Assembly: GCF_011290685.1 (NCBI RefSeq)
Contig: NZ_JAANYN010000004.1
Coordinates: forward strand, 310,001 to 374,000
Reading direction: 5' to 3'
Source of the DNA: Cyclobacterium plantarum
Lineage (GTDB): Bacteria > Bacteroidota > Bacteroidia > Cytophagales > Cyclobacteriaceae
DNA: 64,000 nucleotides
Part shown: one piece after another, positions 43,135 to 52,999 of the stretch
Numbering within the stretch: position 1 is the stretch's first letter
Layout of the letters: each line of letters begins with the position of its first letter
The notes under the pieces: model-generated
What the model saw: the letters and a program-made list of their open reading frames with translations, nothing else
Told to the model about the DNA's origin: nothing
Databases searched by the model: none
Position numbers and translations under genes: made by a program

Positions 43135-43833
43135 CTAAGAAGACTGGTTTACTTTATCTTTGACTTTTGCCAGCGCATTTTTCCCCTTGGCAATATTAAG
43201 AAACATGGCCCGTTTGATCTTGATCAATCGCTCAAAAAGACTGAGATTCTTATTAAATTGAGCCGAAAGTTTCTTTTGTTCCGCTTTTTTTACGCTTTTT
43301 GGCTCATAAAGCATGGCTGTACAAAGGCAATTGGATCTGTTTTTACTTGTAAGGATAGGATAATTTACACAGCTTTGACAGCCTTTCCAGAAATCGTCAT
43401 CTGTAGTAAGGTCCGAATAGCTGACGGGATAATATCCGAGTTCTGAGTTGATTTTCATAACAGCAGCCCCTGTGGTGAGGCCAAATATTTTGGCATCAGG
43501 ATACTTCTTTCTGCTGAGTTTGAATACCTCTCTTTTTATTTCCCTGGCCAATCCGTGTTTTCTGAATTCAGGTGACACGATTAATCCGGAGTTGGCTACA
43601 AATTTCCCATGACCCCAGGCCTCAATATAGCAGAATCCTGCCCACTGGCCGGAAGCAGTAAGGGCAATGACCGCCTTGCCTTCTTTCATTTTCGTTTTGA
43701 TGTACTCAGGAGACCGTTTGGCTATTCCTGTACCCCTTGCCTGAGCTGAAAGTTCCATTTCTTCAGTGATGGTTTCAGCATATTGGCAATGTTCTTCGCC
43801 GGCAGGTTTAATGATAAATTTTTGATTGGCCAT
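43135..43833 (-). CDS. GNAT N-acyltransferase of the arginine operon (ArgA-like role)
   Basis: This 232-residue GNAT protein has the acetyl-CoA loop region SPEFRKHGLAREIKREVF and core strands around AGFCYIEAWGHGKFVANSGL. A Cys-rich stretch (GCQSCVNYP, then NCLCTAMLY) follows and could bind a metal. The C-terminus is strongly basic and helical. It is the first gene of the arginine operon, which otherwise lacks an N-acylglutamate synthase, so acylation of glutamate (acetyl- or succinyl-CoA dependent) is the likely role. It is not homologous in layout to canonical ArgA (no kinase-like domain). The assignment is by context plus fold. Confidence 0.78.
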   Translation of the reverse strand: MANQKFIIKPAGEEHCQYAETITEEMELSAQARGTGIAKRSPEYIKTKMKEGKAVIALTASGQWAGFCYIEAWGHGKFVANSGLIVSPEFRKHGLAREIKREVFKLSRKKYPDAKIFGLTTGAAVMKINSELGYYPVSYSDLTTDDDFWKGCQSCVNYPILTSKNRSNCLCTAMLYEPKSVKKAEQKKLSAQFNKNLSLFERLIKIKRAMFLNIAKGKNALAKVKDKVNQSS

Positions 43834-44368: not shown

Positions 44369-45589
44369 ATGGCAAAATGTTTCGCACTAATGGGTTGGAG
44401 TTTGCCCGTAATAGAAAGTATGCAAAAACTCAACAAACCTTATGTTGTAGTATCCTACCCGGATTTTGAAGGCTATGCCAAAGAACACAATATTCCTTTC
44501 GTTTCTTATCAATTTGATGAATGGAGCGATTCTTCCAATTCTTTGGACCTGAAGGCTAAGTTGGATGAATTTGGTGCTGATGTTGCCGTACCTCTTTTTG
44601 AGGAAACTGTAGAATGGGCGGGAGCTTTAAATTCTCTTTACAGAGACGACCCAAGGGTGCTAAACAGGGCCTTTTTGTTTAGAAATAAGGCCATGATGAA
44701 GCGAAAAGCACTAATTGGTGGACTTCGTGTAGGGTTGTTTGAAGAAGTTTATAGTAAAGAAGGCGTTTTGAATTTCATGGAAAGGCTAAACCAGGCCAAC
44801 CTTCAGATAGATGGGGAAGAAGATAGCTGGGTACATATAAAACCTTTTGCATCAGCTGGAACAGTAGGTCACCGTTTGCTGCGATCCAAACAGGATGTTG
44901 AAAACAAATGTGTTGACGAAGATTTCCCCTGCCTTGCCGAGAGTCATCTTCCGGGAAAAGAGTTTTCCTGTGAGGCGTTTATTCACGGGGGTAAAATCAG
45001 ATTTTTAAATATCACAGAATATGTAAAACTGGGTTACAGCAATTTTATTCCTGAAGGCAATTACCTGCATACCAAAAGGGATAAAATAATGAAAGAAATG
45101 CAAAAGCTGGTGGATATTTTTGGTATTCAGTATGGAATGATCCATCCGGAATGGTTTCTGACCGAAAATGATGAGATCAGCTTTGGTGAAACTGCCTGCA
45201 GAATTCCCGGTGGCCATATATTGGAACTTTGTGGTAAGGCCTATGGTTTTGATGCCCTGGCCGCTTTTGTCCTTTGTCACGATCCGGATTTAACGGAAGA
45301 GGATTTAGCAGAAATTTTACCACCTTTGGATGCCAGGCCTAAGGAATTTTATGGAAATGTAATGATTTATCCCCATAAAAATCAGATCTCCAAACTGATT
45401 ATACCGGAGGAGTTAAAAGAAGAGTCTTATTTTCTGGACCATAATTTGATACCTCCCATGACCACACAAAAAATCAGCGACAGAGAGGGGTTTGGAAATC
45501 ATTTCGGAACTGTTAATTTTAAGGGAGAAGATCCGGACAGGATGACGGAACTATTACTCCACTATGAAAATGTGGATTTTTATCATTAA
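44369..45589 (+). CDS. ATP-grasp carboxylate-amine ligase of unknown specificity
   Basis: This 406-residue protein has ATP-grasp landmarks: the Lys-Pro motif VHIKPFASAGTVGHRLL, the acidic ESHLPGKEFSCEAFIHGGKI region, and the metal-binding MIHPEWFLTENDEISFGETACRIPGGHI. The three lie in the usual order and spacing. The N-terminus (FALMGWSLPVIESMQKLN) forms the preATP-grasp domain. It is most like the amino-acid/dipeptide ligase branch of the superfamily (carnosine synthase or dapdiamide-type). It is followed by a strong terminator, then the 664-residue protein and alanine racemase. It may ligate an amino acid, possibly D-Ala, to another carboxylate; that is inference. Confidence 0.8.
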   Translation: MAKCFALMGWSLPVIESMQKLNKPYVVVSYPDFEGYAKEHNIPFVSYQFDEWSDSSNSLDLKAKLDEFGADVAVPLFEETVEWAGALNSLYRDDPRVLNRAFLFRNKAMMKRKALIGGLRVGLFEEVYSKEGVLNFMERLNQANLQIDGEEDSWVHIKPFASAGTVGHRLLRSKQDVENKCVDEDFPCLAESHLPGKEFSCEAFIHGGKIRFLNITEYVKLGYSNFIPEGNYLHTKRDKIMKEMQKLVDIFGIQYGMIHPEWFLTENDEISFGETACRIPGGHILELCGKAYGFDALAAFVLCHDPDLTEEDLAEILPPLDARPKEFYGNVMIYPHKNQISKLIIPEELKEESYFLDHNLIPPMTTQKISDREGFGNHFGTVNFKGEDPDRMTELLLHYENVDFYH

Positions 45590-45656
45590 TCAGTAATAAT
45601 TAATAGGTAGTATTTGATAATCTGGTGATTAATTTCGTCATTATGTAAATCAGGTA

Positions 45657-45694
45657 GAAAAAATATTGACAGCTAAGTTTGTCAATATTTTTTC
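45657..45694 (+). terminator. Strong rho-independent terminator or attenuator between the ATP-grasp gene and the 664-aa gene
   Basis: A perfect 15-bp stem (GAAAAAATATTGACA / TGTCAATATTTTTTC) with an 8-nt loop lies 67 bp after the ATP-grasp stop and 39 bp before the next start. The 3' arm includes a six-T run. It would reduce read-through into the two downstream genes. Confidence 0.85.
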
Positions 45695-45732
45695 TTTTCA
45701 CAATTATAAATATTTTAAGTGTTAAACCATTC

Positions 45733-47727
45733 ATGCAAAATCAGGAGATAGTAGAGAGAAGCCAGGAGCTTTTTGAGGAGTTATTCAAAGAATACAAAGA
45801 AGCTACAGCGCTGACCAGTAACCAAAAAGCTCAGAAAATCATGGGGCAATTGGATACCTGGTGTGATAGTGAGGAAGGAATATCCAGGATTTACGAAAAT
45901 ATTCCAAAATTGGTGAGTGCAGGCATTTTAAAAGATTCACCCTGGGAGCATCCGGGAAAATTGGTTCCTGCTTTGGTCAATGGCACTTATAAAAGTGGAC
46001 ACCCCAATTCCACCATTGAATTGCTCAGTGAGCTTAGGATGCTGGCCATTGCGAAAGGTAAAATGAAATCGGAAGAAGTTAGTGCCACCGAAGCCGAAAA
46101 TTTTGTTCAGGAGGTAATCGTTTACAATCTGGAATTTGTTTTCAATGAGCCTCAGGAAGAAACCCGGTTGGTAATGAGTGGGCATGAGTTGAAAAAAGTG
46201 CATTCTCTATTTCTCTTTTTATCCAATAGTGTCAAACTTTCGAAAGTCAAATCAAAGCTTGCGGAGGAATTGAAATTGATCTGTGAGCAACGTCCGGTGG
46301 TTACAGAGAAACAACGAAGGATCATCGCCTTGGTGAAAGAAAAAATTGAATTGGACCCCAATGACCCTGCAGATGAAGATTTGTTGGCATTTCAAAGGAG
46401 CATTTACCGACCTACCGAAAGAACAACTGGCAAAACTTTTCAGAAATACCGGCAGGATTTGGATAAACTAACCATTGAAGAACTTGAGTTTGAAGCGAAG
46501 GAAATGGGAAAAGTGATGTTGCAATTTGGCCTGGTTAGTCAATACCATGCGGTCTTATTGCTTCATCTTGTCAGAAAAGAATTGTATGAACTGGTACCTC
46601 CATGTTTTGCTTTAAGTGCGGCAGGTGAAGCCAGGTATCACGAATACAGGGATTTTGTGAGTTTTTTAATTGTCCAGGTAATTGATCCCTTCAATGCACA
46701 ATGCTTATATGGGCTTGCCAAAATGCTTGAAAACGGAGTATTGGCCAGAGAAGCTGTACGTTCGGGCTTATTTAACCTTTCCAAGATAATCATTCATCCG
46801 GAGGTAGTCAAAAGAATCTTGAAATCTACCAGGACACCACACGAAAAAGTAACGCCCAAGCAATACCTTATCGGGGCACTTTTCAGGATATTGGGTCAGC
46901 CACTTGGCGTAGGTCAAGGTAATAATCCTACCTGTCAGAGTGCCAGGGGTATCAGCATGTGGAGTCAACATGCACCGGCCAAATTGATCCATATGGTGCA
47001 AACAGCAGCGGAATATGATGACCTATCCTTCAGGTTTGAAGGGCAGGAAGTGAAATATTCTCAAACGCAACCGGGATTGGTACAGGTTCTGGACCATCAT
47101 CTGGATGCCGTGTCCGTCACCTTGGTTCCCATGCTTGACAGGATTTATAACGACATGATGTTGAGGGCTTCTGGAAGAGGAGAGGATCCGCACAAGTGGG
47201 TCAACCCAGCCCTGTATGGCCAATGGATTCAGATTGGCTTTGCCTCAGCATACGATTATCTGTACAATGCCATCATTGATTTTGATGGATTTGTCAGGGT
47301 ATTCTATTCCATGTTTCATCCAAAATACAACGGAGGTCACAGGATGGTGTATCCAAATCCGGTCGGAATTTTCGTTACCACCGCAAAAGGCGATATGTTG
47401 GGCTTTCATGCTGTTTCTTTGCTCCGCATAGATAAAGACAATAATGGTGAATTGCGGGCATATTTTCTCAATCCGAATAATGAAGGCCGGCAAGATTGGG
47501 GGCAGGACATCAAACCTTCTGTTTATGGAAAAGGTGAAATTCACGGTGAATCTTCACTTCCGTTTCACCAATTTGCCGCCAGGACTTATGCCTTTCACTA
47601 CAATAACCTTGAAGCAGCGGGTATGATGAACAATGTGCCCGCAAAAGAAGTTGAAAAAGTAAAAAAACTGGCAAAAGAAAGTTGGGGAAAATCTTATACC
47701 TGGTTAGAAACCAAAAGAAAATGGTAA
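45733..47727 (+). CDS. 664-aa protein with papain-like Cys/His/Asn signature, unknown function
   Basis: I do not recognise the family. Residues 1-380 are nearly all helical, charged and without a signal peptide. The C-terminal part looks like a papain-fold enzyme: GNNPTCQSARGISMWSQ (Cys401 at a helix start), then MLGFHAVSLLRIDK (His559) and AYFLNPNNEGRQDWG (Asn580). The order and spacing (158, then 21 residues) fit papain or C39/transglutaminase-like catalysis of acyl transfer or peptide cleavage. The ATG at 45733 is preferred; the longer frame adds a hydrophobic stretch encoded by the terminator arm. Its stop overlaps the alr start by 7 bp (ATGGTAA), so the two are translationally coupled. 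Confidence 0.7.
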   Translation: MQNQEIVERSQELFEELFKEYKEATALTSNQKAQKIMGQLDTWCDSEEGISRIYENIPKLVSAGILKDSPWEHPGKLVPALVNGTYKSGHPNSTIELLSELRMLAIAKGKMKSEEVSATEAENFVQEVIVYNLEFVFNEPQEETRLVMSGHELKKVHSLFLFLSNSVKLSKVKSKLAEELKLICEQRPVVTEKQRRIIALVKEKIELDPNDPADEDLLAFQRSIYRPTERTTGKTFQKYRQDLDKLTIEELEFEAKEMGKVMLQFGLVSQYHAVLLLHLVRKELYELVPPCFALSAAGEARYHEYRDFVSFLIVQVIDPFNAQCLYGLAKMLENGVLAREAVRSGLFNLSKIIIHPEVVKRILKSTRTPHEKVTPKQYLIGALFRILGQPLGVGQGNNPTCQSARGISMWSQHAPAKLIHMVQTAAEYDDLSFRFEGQEVKYSQTQPGLVQVLDHHLDAVSVTLVPMLDRIYNDMMLRASGRGEDPHKWVNPALYGQWIQIGFASAYDYLYNAIIDFDGFVRVFYSMFHPKYNGGHRMVYPNPVGIFVTTAKGDMLGFHAVSLLRIDKDNNGELRAYFLNPNNEGRQDWGQDIKPSVYGKGEIHGESSLPFHQFAARTYAFHYNNLEAAGMMNNVPAKEVEKVKKLAKESWGKSYTWLETKRKW

Positions 47728-48878
47728 GACACTCATCAAGAATAGAATTAAAACAATCTGCTTATAAAAGTAATATCAATTTTATCAGGAAGAAGATAGG
47801 CGAAAAGCCTATCCTCTCTTCTGTTGTTAAGGCCAATGCCTACGGACACGGGATTGAATCTTTCGTGCCTATGGCAGAAAAGTGCGGTATCAATCACTTT
47901 TGTGTGGCCTCCTCATTCGAAGCCGAACAAGTTTTGCGGGTTTGCAAAAAGGAGAGTCATGTGGTGATTATGGGTATCATCTATCAAGAGGATATACCAT
48001 GGGCTATAGAGAATGATATTGGCTTTTTTGTATACAATTATGACAGGTTACCGGTAGCCCTTGAGGCAGCCAAAAAGGTAGGCAAACCTGCCAGAGTACA
48101 TGTAGAAGTAGAAACAGGAGCCAACAGGACTGGAATGCATGAGAAAGAATTTCCAAAAGCTTTGACATTTTTGAAAAAAAATACGGAATGTATTTACTTT
48201 GAAGGTCTTTGTACTCATTTTGGAGGAGCGGAAAGTATTGCCAACCAGTTCAAAATTGACATGCAGCACAAGCGGTATAAAGCAGCCCTTAAAATATGTA
48301 AGGAAAAGAATATTCTTCCAGAATTACGCCACATTGCTTGCTCTGCAGCGGCCCTTGCCATGAAGGATACTGTTTATGATATGGTACGCATAGGAGTGGC
48401 ACAGTATGGTTTCTGGCCAAGCCCTGATGTATATTTTGCCCATCTCCATGAAACCAACAAAAAATCCGACACTTCGCTTAAGCGGATTTTTAGCTGGAAA
48501 ACCGATGTAATGGATATCAGAAAGGTGGATCAGGGAGAGTTTATTGGATACGGAACGGCTTTTCAAGCCACACAGCCCATGACAGTTGCCGTTTTACCAT
48601 TGGGATATTCCAATGGATATCCCCGGGCTTTGTCCAATAGGGGGCAGGTGTTGATAAAAGGCAAAAAGGCTCCGATAGTTGGCCTGATCAATATGAACTT
48701 GTTTATGGTGGATATCACCCATATTCCAGAAGTAAAGGTAGGAGACGAAGTGGTGTTGATTGGAAGACAAAATAATAGTGTCATAAATGTTTCCAGTTTT
48801 ACCAATGTCACTCAGTTGCTTAACAATGAAATGCTTAGCCGACTTCCTGCAGCCATACCAAGAACAGTGGTGAGGTAA
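47721..48878 (+). CDS. alr: Alanine racemase, stand-alone
   Basis: This 385-residue fold-type III PLP enzyme interconverts L- and D-alanine. The PLP-lysine motif SSVVKANAYGHG, VHVEVETGANRTGM, YDMVRIGVAQYG, the second catalytic Tyr in EFIGYGTAF, LPLGYSNGYPR and the C-terminal LSRLPAAIPR are all intact. The start (ATG 47721) overlaps the stop of the 664-residue protein by 7 bp. In many Bacteroidota the housekeeping racemase is fused to MurF; this one is not, suggesting a dedicated role for D-Ala (or another D-amino acid) in the cluster. Confidence 0.93.
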   Translation: MVRHSSRIELKQSAYKSNINFIRKKIGEKPILSSVVKANAYGHGIESFVPMAEKCGINHFCVASSFEAEQVLRVCKKESHVVIMGIIYQEDIPWAIENDIGFFVYNYDRLPVALEAAKKVGKPARVHVEVETGANRTGMHEKEFPKALTFLKKNTECIYFEGLCTHFGGAESIANQFKIDMQHKRYKAALKICKEKNILPELRHIACSAAALAMKDTVYDMVRIGVAQYGFWPSPDVYFAHLHETNKKSDTSLKRIFSWKTDVMDIRKVDQGEFIGYGTAFQATQPMTVAVLPLGYSNGYPRALSNRGQVLIKGKKAPIVGLINMNLFMVDITHIPEVKVGDEVVLIGRQNNSVINVSSFTNVTQLLNNEMLSRLPAAIPRTVVR

Positions 48879-50194: not shown

Positions 50195-51262
50195 TCAGGT
50201 CCTAATGGAATGGTTGTTTTCCAAATAAAAAGATTGTAAGATGTATTGAAGTTGTTCGTATTCTATCAGGAAGGCATCATGTCCATAAAGGGAACTGATC
50301 TCCCGGTAGGTTCCCTTGGGTACATGAAGACTGATAAACCGGGACTCTACGAAGGTAAACAACAGGTCCGTATCAATCCCAATGGAGAGTACCTTGCATT
50401 GGATTTTGGCCAAAGCCGCTGCAGTCCCCCCTCTGGCTCTTCCCAGGTCATGGCTATCCATGGCTTTGGATAGTGTCCAGTATGAGAGGGCATTGAACCG
50501 GTTTGCCAATTTCATACCCTGATAGCGCAGGTAACTGCTGATTTTGAAGTTATCCCTTTTTTCCTCGGTTTCACTTTGATGCTGAATAAATGTCTGTGGA
50601 TGCCTGTAGCTGAGCATGCCTATGGCCCTGGCTGTTTCCAAACCTTTTTTTCCCGCTTTAGCATCCATGCTGCCCCAGGTTTGGTCAGATTCAATGGCCA
50701 TCCTCTGTGTTTCATTAAAACCGATGATCCAGGGAGATGCTTTGGCATTTGAAGCGATGATAATGGCGTTATTTAGCCTTTCTTTCAAAGTATAGGCCCA
50801 TTCCAGGGCTACCTGACCACCTAATGATCCTCCAATCACCGTATCAATTTGATCCAGGCCCAGGTGAAGCCTCAACTTATCCATGGAAGCAGCGATATCC
50901 CGGGTAGTAAGGTTTGGGAAATCGTAATAATAGGGTTTCCCTGTTCCGGGATTAACACTCAGGGGCTGCGTTGACCCATAACAGGACCCCAGGAAGTTGG
51001 CGCAAATGATGAAATGACGGGAAGGATCATAGAATTTATCCTCACCGATCAAGCCGGCCCACCATTCCTGAGGGTTGGCATCACCTGTAAGGGCATGCAA
51101 GACCCAGACAACATTGTCTTTTTTGTCATTAAGTTGTCCCTGGGTAGTAAAGCTCAACTGGAATTCGGGCAATATTTCTCCTGATTCCAAATGGAGGGCT
51201 TCCTTGCAATAGAAAATCTCTTGGGTCATTTCAATAGACAAATGCGGCGATTGGAGGTTCAT
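50195..51262 (-). CDS. metX: Homoserine O-acetyltransferase
   Basis: This 355-residue alpha/beta hydrolase-fold enzyme activates homoserine for methionine synthesis with acetyl-CoA (some homologues use succinyl-CoA). It has WVLHALTGDANPQEWW, the family segment GSCYGSTQPLSVNPGTGKPY, the nucleophile elbow IGGSLGGQVALEWA and the Asp/His partners in SIGIDTDLLF and YGHDAFLIE. It lies 8 bp after metY. The canonical GSxGP appears here as GSTQP, a minor change. Confidence 0.93.
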   Translation of the reverse strand: MNLQSPHLSIEMTQEIFYCKEALHLESGEILPEFQLSFTTQGQLNDKKDNVVWVLHALTGDANPQEWWAGLIGEDKFYDPSRHFIICANFLGSCYGSTQPLSVNPGTGKPYYYDFPNLTTRDIAASMDKLRLHLGLDQIDTVIGGSLGGQVALEWAYTLKERLNNAIIIASNAKASPWIIGFNETQRMAIESDQTWGSMDAKAGKKGLETARAIGMLSYRHPQTFIQHQSETEEKRDNFKISSYLRYQGMKLANRFNALSYWTLSKAMDSHDLGRARGGTAAALAKIQCKVLSIGIDTDLLFTFVESRFISLHVPKGTYREISSLYGHDAFLIEYEQLQYILQSFYLENNHSIRT

Positions 51263-51270
51263 TTTAACAA

Positions 51271-52587
<1,317 letters not shown>

Positions 52588-52685: not shown

Positions 52686-52767
52686 CTAGAATCGCAGTGA
52701 ATACCTGGGAAGAAATTTTTGGAATTTTTATCCTTGAATAAATATAAAATTGAACTCATTCTATAGA

Positions 52768-52875
52768 ATTTATATTTCCAAATGAAACTGTTTTCATCTG
52801 GCAGGAATTGGCACCTTGGATTTTCCAGGTTGCCAGAGGGTCACCGAGCCTGTCTCTTACCTCTTCTATATAAAT
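52768..52875 (-). ncRNA. SAM-I (S-box) riboswitch
   Basis: Read on the - strand, the P1 arms ATTTATAT (52868-52875) and ATATAAAT (52768-52775) enclose AGAGGTAAGAGACAGG, a P2 partner CCTCT followed by the invariant GGCAACC (52828-52834), a P3 around TGGAAAATCCA, the conserved AGGTGCCAATTCC (52804-52816), and a P4 stem CCAGATGAAA/TTTCATTTGG. These are the conserved core blocks of the S-box in the right order. It should reduce metY-metX-VOC expression when SAM is plentiful. A near-consensus promoter (TTG, 21 nt, TATTTTG at 52907-52913) lies just upstream. Confidence 0.92.
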
Positions 52876-52999
52876 CCTTTGTACCGTAAAAAGTAAAAGG
52901 ATGCTGCAAAATAAGCTTAGATTGGTATATTTTCCAATAGATCCCTGCGATTTTTTCTTTTATTGAAACAAAATCACAGGAATTCAGTGAGATAAATTG

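Follow-up and report, generated by a model that had tools for sequence, protein, structure and literature searches.

An ATP-grasp amide ligase combined with a papain-like cysteine enzyme is known from glutathionylspermidine synthetase/amidase, where the ATP-grasp half and the papain-like part, a small CHAP domain, are fused in one protein and the amine is derived from ornithine. Butirosin biosynthesis likewise joins a ligase to papain-like acyl transfer: BtrJ is an ATP-grasp ligase, and the butirosin system uses an acyl carrier protein. A papain-like fold is described for its partner BtrH in PMC2922099. Here we analysed a window of 64,000 nucleotides from Cyclobacterium plantarum (the whole stretch of DNA under study; RefSeq assembly GCF_011290685.1, contig NZ_JAANYN010000004.1, positions 310,001 to 374,000 of the forward strand), in which three consecutive genes encode an ATP-grasp ligase, a 664 amino acid (aa) protein with a probably papain-like C-terminal domain, and a member of the alanine racemase (Alr) family. 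Unlike glutathionylspermidine synthetase/amidase, this locus has two genes for the two activities, a long helical region at the N-terminus of the 664-aa protein and no CHAP match. Unlike the butirosin system, it shows no acyl carrier protein, and the 664-aa protein has no match to BtrH_N.

In the N-acetylglutaminylglutamine amide osmolyte pathway, an acetyltransferase, an ATP-grasp enzyme and amide formation lead to a compatible solute. No asparagine-synthetase-like gene was noticed beside the pair described here, which has the papain-like enzyme instead, and the ligase family of that pathway is not among the three NCBIfam families listed for the window ligase. In contrast to systems for ribosomally synthesized and post-translationally modified peptides (RiPPs) and graspetides, a scan of 71 loci found no small precursor gene near the ligase. 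Among the L-amino-acid ligases (4wd3; BL00235 / 3vot), 4wd3 is by profile the best solved relative of the window ligase and shares a GE-x-A-x-R motif with it in the alignment, but the match covers about 250 residues at 40–44 bits, 4dim outranks 3vot, and to our knowledge those systems lack a partner such as the 664-aa protein. The first-pass annotation of the window had known of no described system with this set of genes, and the set was not named in the titles and abstract openings that we found; these did not cover the amidoligase catalogue of Iyer et al. (2009), so that an earlier mention is possible.

Pairing of the ligase with a probably papain-like protein

All three genes are on the + strand: the ligase gene (406 aa) at 44369..45589, the gene for the 664-aa protein at 45733..47727, and the gene for the stand-alone racemase at 47721..48878. 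The racemase ATG at 47721 overlaps the TAA (47725–47727) of the preceding gene, and this overlap, the open reading frames (ORFs) and the positions of Cys401, His559 and Asn580 are all present as first annotated. The length of 664 aa is counted from an ATG; an alternative upstream TTG would give 682 aa. The 143-base gap between the ligase gene and the 664-aa gene folds at −27.0 kcal/mol, with a predicted terminator-like hairpin and T-rich tail at 45657..45694 (+), and similar hairpins occupy this gap in several other genera. Because the hairpin separates the two genes, the three genes need not share one transcript.

A scan of 84,980 species genomes gave at least 596 candidate stretches, of which 591 were confirmed as loci; neighbour counts refer to the best 80 of these. 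By record title, the best 80 are mostly from Bacteroidota (some titles of metagenome-assembled genomes, MAGs, are perhaps wrong) and otherwise from Bacillota, Planctomycetota, Nitrospirota, Deltaproteobacteria/Polyangia, one Oligoflexia MAG, Gammaproteobacteria and one actinobacterium (Hoyosella). Of the loci that could be assessed, 70 of 72 have the ligase gene upstream on the same strand and 60 of 74 the racemase gene next downstream of the 664-aa gene, with limits of 900 and 600 bases, respectively, and with loci excluded that were too short (8 of 80 upstream, 6 of 80 downstream). The two exceptions for the ligase are L094, where it lies in inverted orientation at a distance of about 4 kb, and L110, where none was found. 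Titles of Bacteroidota groups account for 56 of the loci with the racemase, the other four being L058, L070, L104 and L106. None of the 14 loci without it is titled Bacteroidota, and one of them (L095) is titled only "bacterium". Considering the adjacency of 70/72 for the ligase versus 60/74 for the racemase, the core consists of the ligase and the 664-aa protein, and the racemase is an addition. The racemase, which had been proposed as part of the set, thus lies outside the universal core; conservation of the neighbourhood far beyond close relatives was confirmed.

In further stretches checked by tblastn, the ligase was upstream in 10/10 from Bacilli and in 8/14 from Gammaproteobacteria. The 664-aa gene is present in 19 of 59 genomes of relatives, 12 of them in the genus of the window. 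Its frequency was 12/348 in a class sample around an Ectobacillus and 13/369 in one around a Wenzhouxiangella; around the window genome it was 4/296 in a phylum sample and 34/148 in a family sample, each sample including its centre genome as a known positive. A search for viral or phage relatives found none. In one record of a plasmid collection, Halomonas sp. PA16-9, a 36% identical homologue of the 664-aa protein adjoins the ligase, and there is no racemase. Plasmid-borne spread was considered and rejected, since this record is the only one and the same neighbours were seen by eye in a 5.0 Mb genome (L203). In L199, L110, L211 and L212, no ligase was found in the stretch read around the 664-aa gene; L211 and L212 are second copies, and the other copy in the same genomes has a ligase nearby.

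The 664-aa protein was aligned with 48 homologues (alignment A3) that are 34–74% identical to it and, judging by record titles, represent about eight phyla. Gln395, Cys401, His559 and Asn580 are invariant in 49/49 rows, and all four are also invariant in a domain alignment (A6) of 53 rows, including one paralogue. Because of this invariance in both alignments, the positions of Cys401, His559 and Asn580 are not due to chance. Papain likewise has a Gln six residues before its Cys, and the order of the papain clan, with Gln six residues ahead of Cys followed by His and then Asn, is found in all 49 rows, which bears out the papain-order Cys401/His559/Asn580 arrangement proposed from the single sequence. 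The codons of the proposed nucleophile Cys401 (46933..46935), the proposed general base His559 (47407..47409) and the proposed third triad residue Asn580 (47470..47472) are on the + strand, as is the codon of the proposed oxyanion residue Gln395, 18 bases upstream of the Cys401 codon.

Profile searches of the 664-aa protein gave no match to the Pfam C1, C2, CHAP, BtrH_N or transglutaminase families; the sole Pfam listing was Cytokin-bind with an E value (E) of 0.11, under the cut-off. There was no match in NCBIfam, nothing better than E 1.3 among PDB sequences, and no match of a profile of the C-terminal domain to PDB sequences. The full-length model has a mean predicted local distance difference test score (pLDDT) of 88.8, with values <50 for residues 393–399 just before Cys401, and places about 370 mostly helical residues before the catalytic domain (about residues 372–664). 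A structure search with this model gave no clear match, and neither did a library of viral structures. The C-terminal domain modelled alone (pLDDT 89.6) retrieved calpain cores first in Foldseek, then C1 peptidases, IdeC, staphopain and bromelain. By title, 49 of the 50 matches listed are papain-like proteases, although the matches are weak (best E 1.4e-3). The model thus suggests that the C-terminal domain is likely papain-like, which falls short of proof. In Ectobacillus, the cluster also encodes a paralogue of 610 aa (L153, 8511–10343, −; E 7.3e-174) that retains the catalytic residues, and lookalikes of it were seen by eye in two Neobacillus loci (L151, L152). An amidohydrolase-like gene follows the paralogue or lookalike in L151 and L153.

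The first gene encodes an ATP-grasp protein, as first annotated. The protein matches Pfam ATP-grasp_4 with E 6.5e-5, but its 23 bits are below the cut-off of 27 bits, and its best NCBIfam match, PRK02186, reaches 38.5 bits against a cut-off of 625. Its nearest solved relative is 4wd3, an L-amino-acid ligase, which was the top match in a single-sequence search of the PDB (E 2.8e-6) and also with a 44-row profile (alignment A4; E 1.8e-10), followed by 4dim (2.1e-5) and 3vot (9.4e-4). We take 4wd3 to be RizA. According to PMC9321006, RizA prefers arginine at the N-terminus.

Linked ornithine and racemase genes

Genes for the ornithine/arginine pathway recur near the pair. In Cytophagales, argB, argD, argC and argJ follow directly after the racemase gene in L029, and in L028 one gene lies between. 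In Bacillaceae, argC-argJ-argB(-argD) follow the 664-aa gene in L096 (Ectobacillus) and L102 (Neobacillus), and argJ alone does so in L097; a profile identified argC and argJ at these loci, and argB and argD were named by eye. Each of these three Bacillaceae genomes has two ArgJ, and two of the three also have two ArgC. A second and unlinked set of argB-argD-argC-argJ is present in Cyclobacterium at C6 (L145).

Among 148 genomes of the family, 28 had both ArgJ and the pair, 6 the pair only, 11 ArgJ only and 103 neither (Fisher p 1e-15), so that ArgJ is present in 28/34 genomes with the pair versus 11/114 without it. Counted by genus, the numbers are 16/4/6/58 (both/pair only/ArgJ only/neither; p 4e-9), and in the first 59 genomes ArgJ and the pair occurred together in 18, the pair only in 1 and ArgJ only in 1. 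A phylum-wide test was dropped because 4/296 genomes with the 664-aa gene were too few. This ornithine link is new and strongest in Cytophagales; most of it lies outside the window and had not been seen in the first-pass annotation. In the window, a GNAT protein (43135–43833, −) heads arg genes and is probably an acetyltransferase of the arginine pathway; among the loci compared, a match to it adjoins the pair only in Cyclobacterium.

The window racemase is a full member of TIGR00492 (279 bits, cut-off 168). The VVKANAYGHG motif with the lysine for pyridoxal 5′-phosphate and the tyrosine of the GYG motif are present in all nine rows of cluster racemases. At the position of the CMD motif, NMN was found in 9/9 cluster racemases and CMD in the 5/5 other Alr rows that align there. 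The ten non-cluster rows included five that were excluded from this comparison as wrong or incomplete ORFs, and three further loci yielded no row. Genes with Ala_racemase_C numbered three in each of 9/9 genomes with the pair and one in each of 3/3 without it, which supports the view that the cluster racemase is an extra enzyme and not the housekeeping one, as its earlier description as dedicated implied. The supply of D-Ala that had been ascribed to it stays an assumption in view of the NMN motif.

Eight of the nine genomes with three Alr genes are Cytophagales, and one Alr copy there lies in a frame of 805–841 aa, by its size a putative MurF-Alr fusion. The third racemase gene in these eight is 43–56% identical to the window racemase. 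Third racemases have NMN (10/13 rows) or TMN (3/13) at the CMD position, so that Asn replaces Asp. Since the cluster and third racemases share this Asn, they may act on a substrate different from alanine. An M20 amidohydrolase gene adjoins the third racemase gene in six of the eight loci, four of which also hold a sodium/solute symporter, a GNAT and an Orr-like protein, and four further genomes with the pair have the same five genes. This second locus (L259, 6161–11426; also L261, L262, L263, L302 and L305–L308) is conserved in Cytophagales. Both M20 proteins scanned are above the cut-off of TIGR01891, with DoeB2 second-best and far below its cut-off; the Orr-like protein reaches 327 bits with NF040742 (ornithine racemase Orr), under the cut-off of 480. 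An M23 peptidase gene lies one gene from the third racemase gene in L256.

Proposed function and alternative explanations

The analysis shows that the two genes are paired and conserved and that, in Cytophagales, they co-occur with genes for ornithine metabolism and racemases; the fold class of the 664-aa protein is probable. As an explanation we tentatively favour, at somewhat less than even chances, a two-enzyme amide-forming core whose substrates would be an amino acid of the ornithine family and, in Bacteroidota, also a D-amino acid, with supply genes that vary between lineages. As its family suggests, the ligase would activate an amino-acid carboxylate with ATP and couple it to an amine, in the manner of L-amino-acid ligases, its likeliest substrate being an ornithine-family amino acid. 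The 664-aa protein may then accept the acyl group through a thioester bond to Cys401 before handing it to a second amine, which would fit the predicted fold and the invariant Gln, Cys, His and Asn. The product of the pair would be a small peptide-like or acylated compound. In Bacteroidota the dedicated racemase would provide the D-amino acid, most simply D-alanine, and the second locus of Cytophagales, in its varying completeness, may serve uptake and dismantling of the product.

That the product serves as a compatible solute or stores nitrogen is a guess. For the solute, its sole bases are gbsR-, gbsA- and gbsB-like genes (by eye) about 2.8 kb upstream of the pair in L179, and the many named hosts among the best 80 loci that are presumably marine or saline. 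The view that the pair makes an undescribed class of metabolites, namely an amide of an ornithine-family and a D-amino acid formed by the ligase and a new papain-fold acyltransferase in about eight phyla and many marine or saline bacteria, perhaps as a solute and with its own locus for uptake and breakdown in Cytophagales, is rather unlikely. If the product were a compatible solute, it would be a new chemical class in the osmoadaptation of marine bacteria. The tie of the family to one ligase and to ornithine and racemase genes in Cytophagales suggests concrete substrates and points to a small molecule as the product; the family itself combines an invariant catalytic set with at least 591 loci among the 84,980 species genomes, and has no name in the copies of Pfam and NCBIfam searched.

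Several observations weigh against an amide-forming core with ornithine-family substrates. On the side of the enzymes, no Foldseek match to a papain-like protein was below E 0.001 and the template modelling (TM) scores for calpain were 0.3–0.4, and the second-ranked solved match of the ligase, 4dim (E 2.1e-5), is not titled an amino-acid ligase. The intergenic hairpin suggests separate expression and speaks against one simple operon. The gammaproteobacterial ligase gene was otherwise oriented or ordered in 3/14 stretches (L201, L202, L204) and not found in 3/14 (L199, L211, L212). The ArgJ co-occurrence statistics ignore shared ancestry, 6 of the 34 genomes with the pair have no ArgJ, and 11 have ArgJ without the pair. 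By tblastn, no argC or argJ was found in the stretches of 10 Bacilli and 14 Gammaproteobacteria; two of the gammaproteobacterial stretches (three by a looser label) show only a 26% identical ArgA/ArgB-type kinase, 6–8 kb off. ArgJ was not found in the genomes of Wenzhouxiangella, Natronospira and the Oligoflexia MAG or in the Halomonas record, a search limited to the ArgJ route. As to the second locus, Orr-like genes (E <1e-50) are present in 34/34 genomes with the pair but also in 41/114 without it, a count that leaves out 3/78 genomes with E near 1e-4, and the cut-off of NF040742 was passed in 0/148 genomes. Symporter, GNAT and Orr genes occur without the racemase in G898, G1177 and G031, which lack the pair, and in G000, G012 and G023, which have it; G1085 holds all five genes of the second locus without the core.

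The main rival to an acyltransferase is a synthetase/amidase pair, in which the ligase makes a conjugate of ornithine or alanine and the papain-like enzyme cleaves the same amide, thereby setting the balance of free and bound amine. We regard this as possible, if on the unlikely side. Papain-fold enzymes mostly hydrolyse, and the hairpin between the genes would allow an excess of ligase over hydrolase. Glutathionylspermidine synthetase provides a precedent and is listed among papain-like CHAP proteins in PMC10318531, but the 664-aa protein has no CHAP match. Moreover, the third racemase is already accompanied by an M20 enzyme, probably an amide hydrolase of a different type, and tight pairing across distant lineages suits two synthetic steps at least equally well. 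Both acyltransferase and amidase would thus have precedents, in BtrJ/BtrH and in glutathionylspermidine synthetase/amidase, respectively.

The pair might also represent an alternative or accessory step of ordinary arginine biosynthesis, for instance with another N-protecting group or its removal. The window contains argG and argC as well as arg-like genes seen by eye, and L095, L099, L103 and L108 also have arg-like genes (by eye) in the vicinity of the pair. Yet Cyclobacterium has a second argC beside argJ elsewhere, which separates its ordinary arginine genes from the pair, a second argJ is present in 3/3 and a second argC in 2/3 of the Bacillaceae, and a racemase has no place in arginine synthesis. 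This explanation is therefore improbable.

We consider it similarly improbable that the 664-aa protein acts as a peptidase inside the cell and that the ligase modifies the tail of a protein or peptide, in a scheme of tagging and removal, although the Foldseek neighbours of the C-terminal domain are proteases. The observed links point to amino-acid metabolism, and a scan of the 71 loci for ORFs of 20–110 aa with ATG starts within 700 bases revealed no conserved precursor or carrier; the 12 largest groups listed either are confined to a single genus or its close relatives or consist of pieces of the GNAT gene upstream. The protein modification suggested in the first-pass annotation thus finds no conserved precursor peptide or small target gene in this one limited scan. 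The modified cell-wall precursor suggested there, with a D-amino acid from the racemase entering a peptidoglycan stem or cross-link, could draw on D-Ala as a wall component and on the M23 peptidase gene in L256 but is very improbable, as the pair occurs in other phyla with no racemase linked to it and no mur, ddl or fem gene recurs beside it in the ORF lists read by eye.

Other genes near the pair

Inspection by eye revealed a gene for a GNAT of about 200 aa that immediately precedes the pair in L098, L099, L103, L107 and L108 (confirmed by profile in L099); in L094 such a gene precedes the 664-aa gene. In 5 of the 10 further Bacilli loci, a different GNAT-like gene and the ligase gene are arranged divergently. 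A sigma-54-activator-like protein of 480–530 aa with a GETGTGK motif was seen by eye a few kb from the pair in L094, L095, L103, L104 and L108. Downstream of the pair, the Nitrospirota loci L103, L107 and L108 carry a gene resembling a dicarboxylate/glutamate-type symporter, and a similar gene is on the other strand in L097 (both by eye).

A search for regulatory RNAs beside the pair in 11 sources gave none at gathering scores. Farther away in the window, an S-adenosylmethionine (SAM) riboswitch (RF00162, 79 bits) is located at about 52767–52876 (−), corresponding to 14768–14877 in L022, upstream of methionine-type genes (by eye) at 50195–52575 (−).

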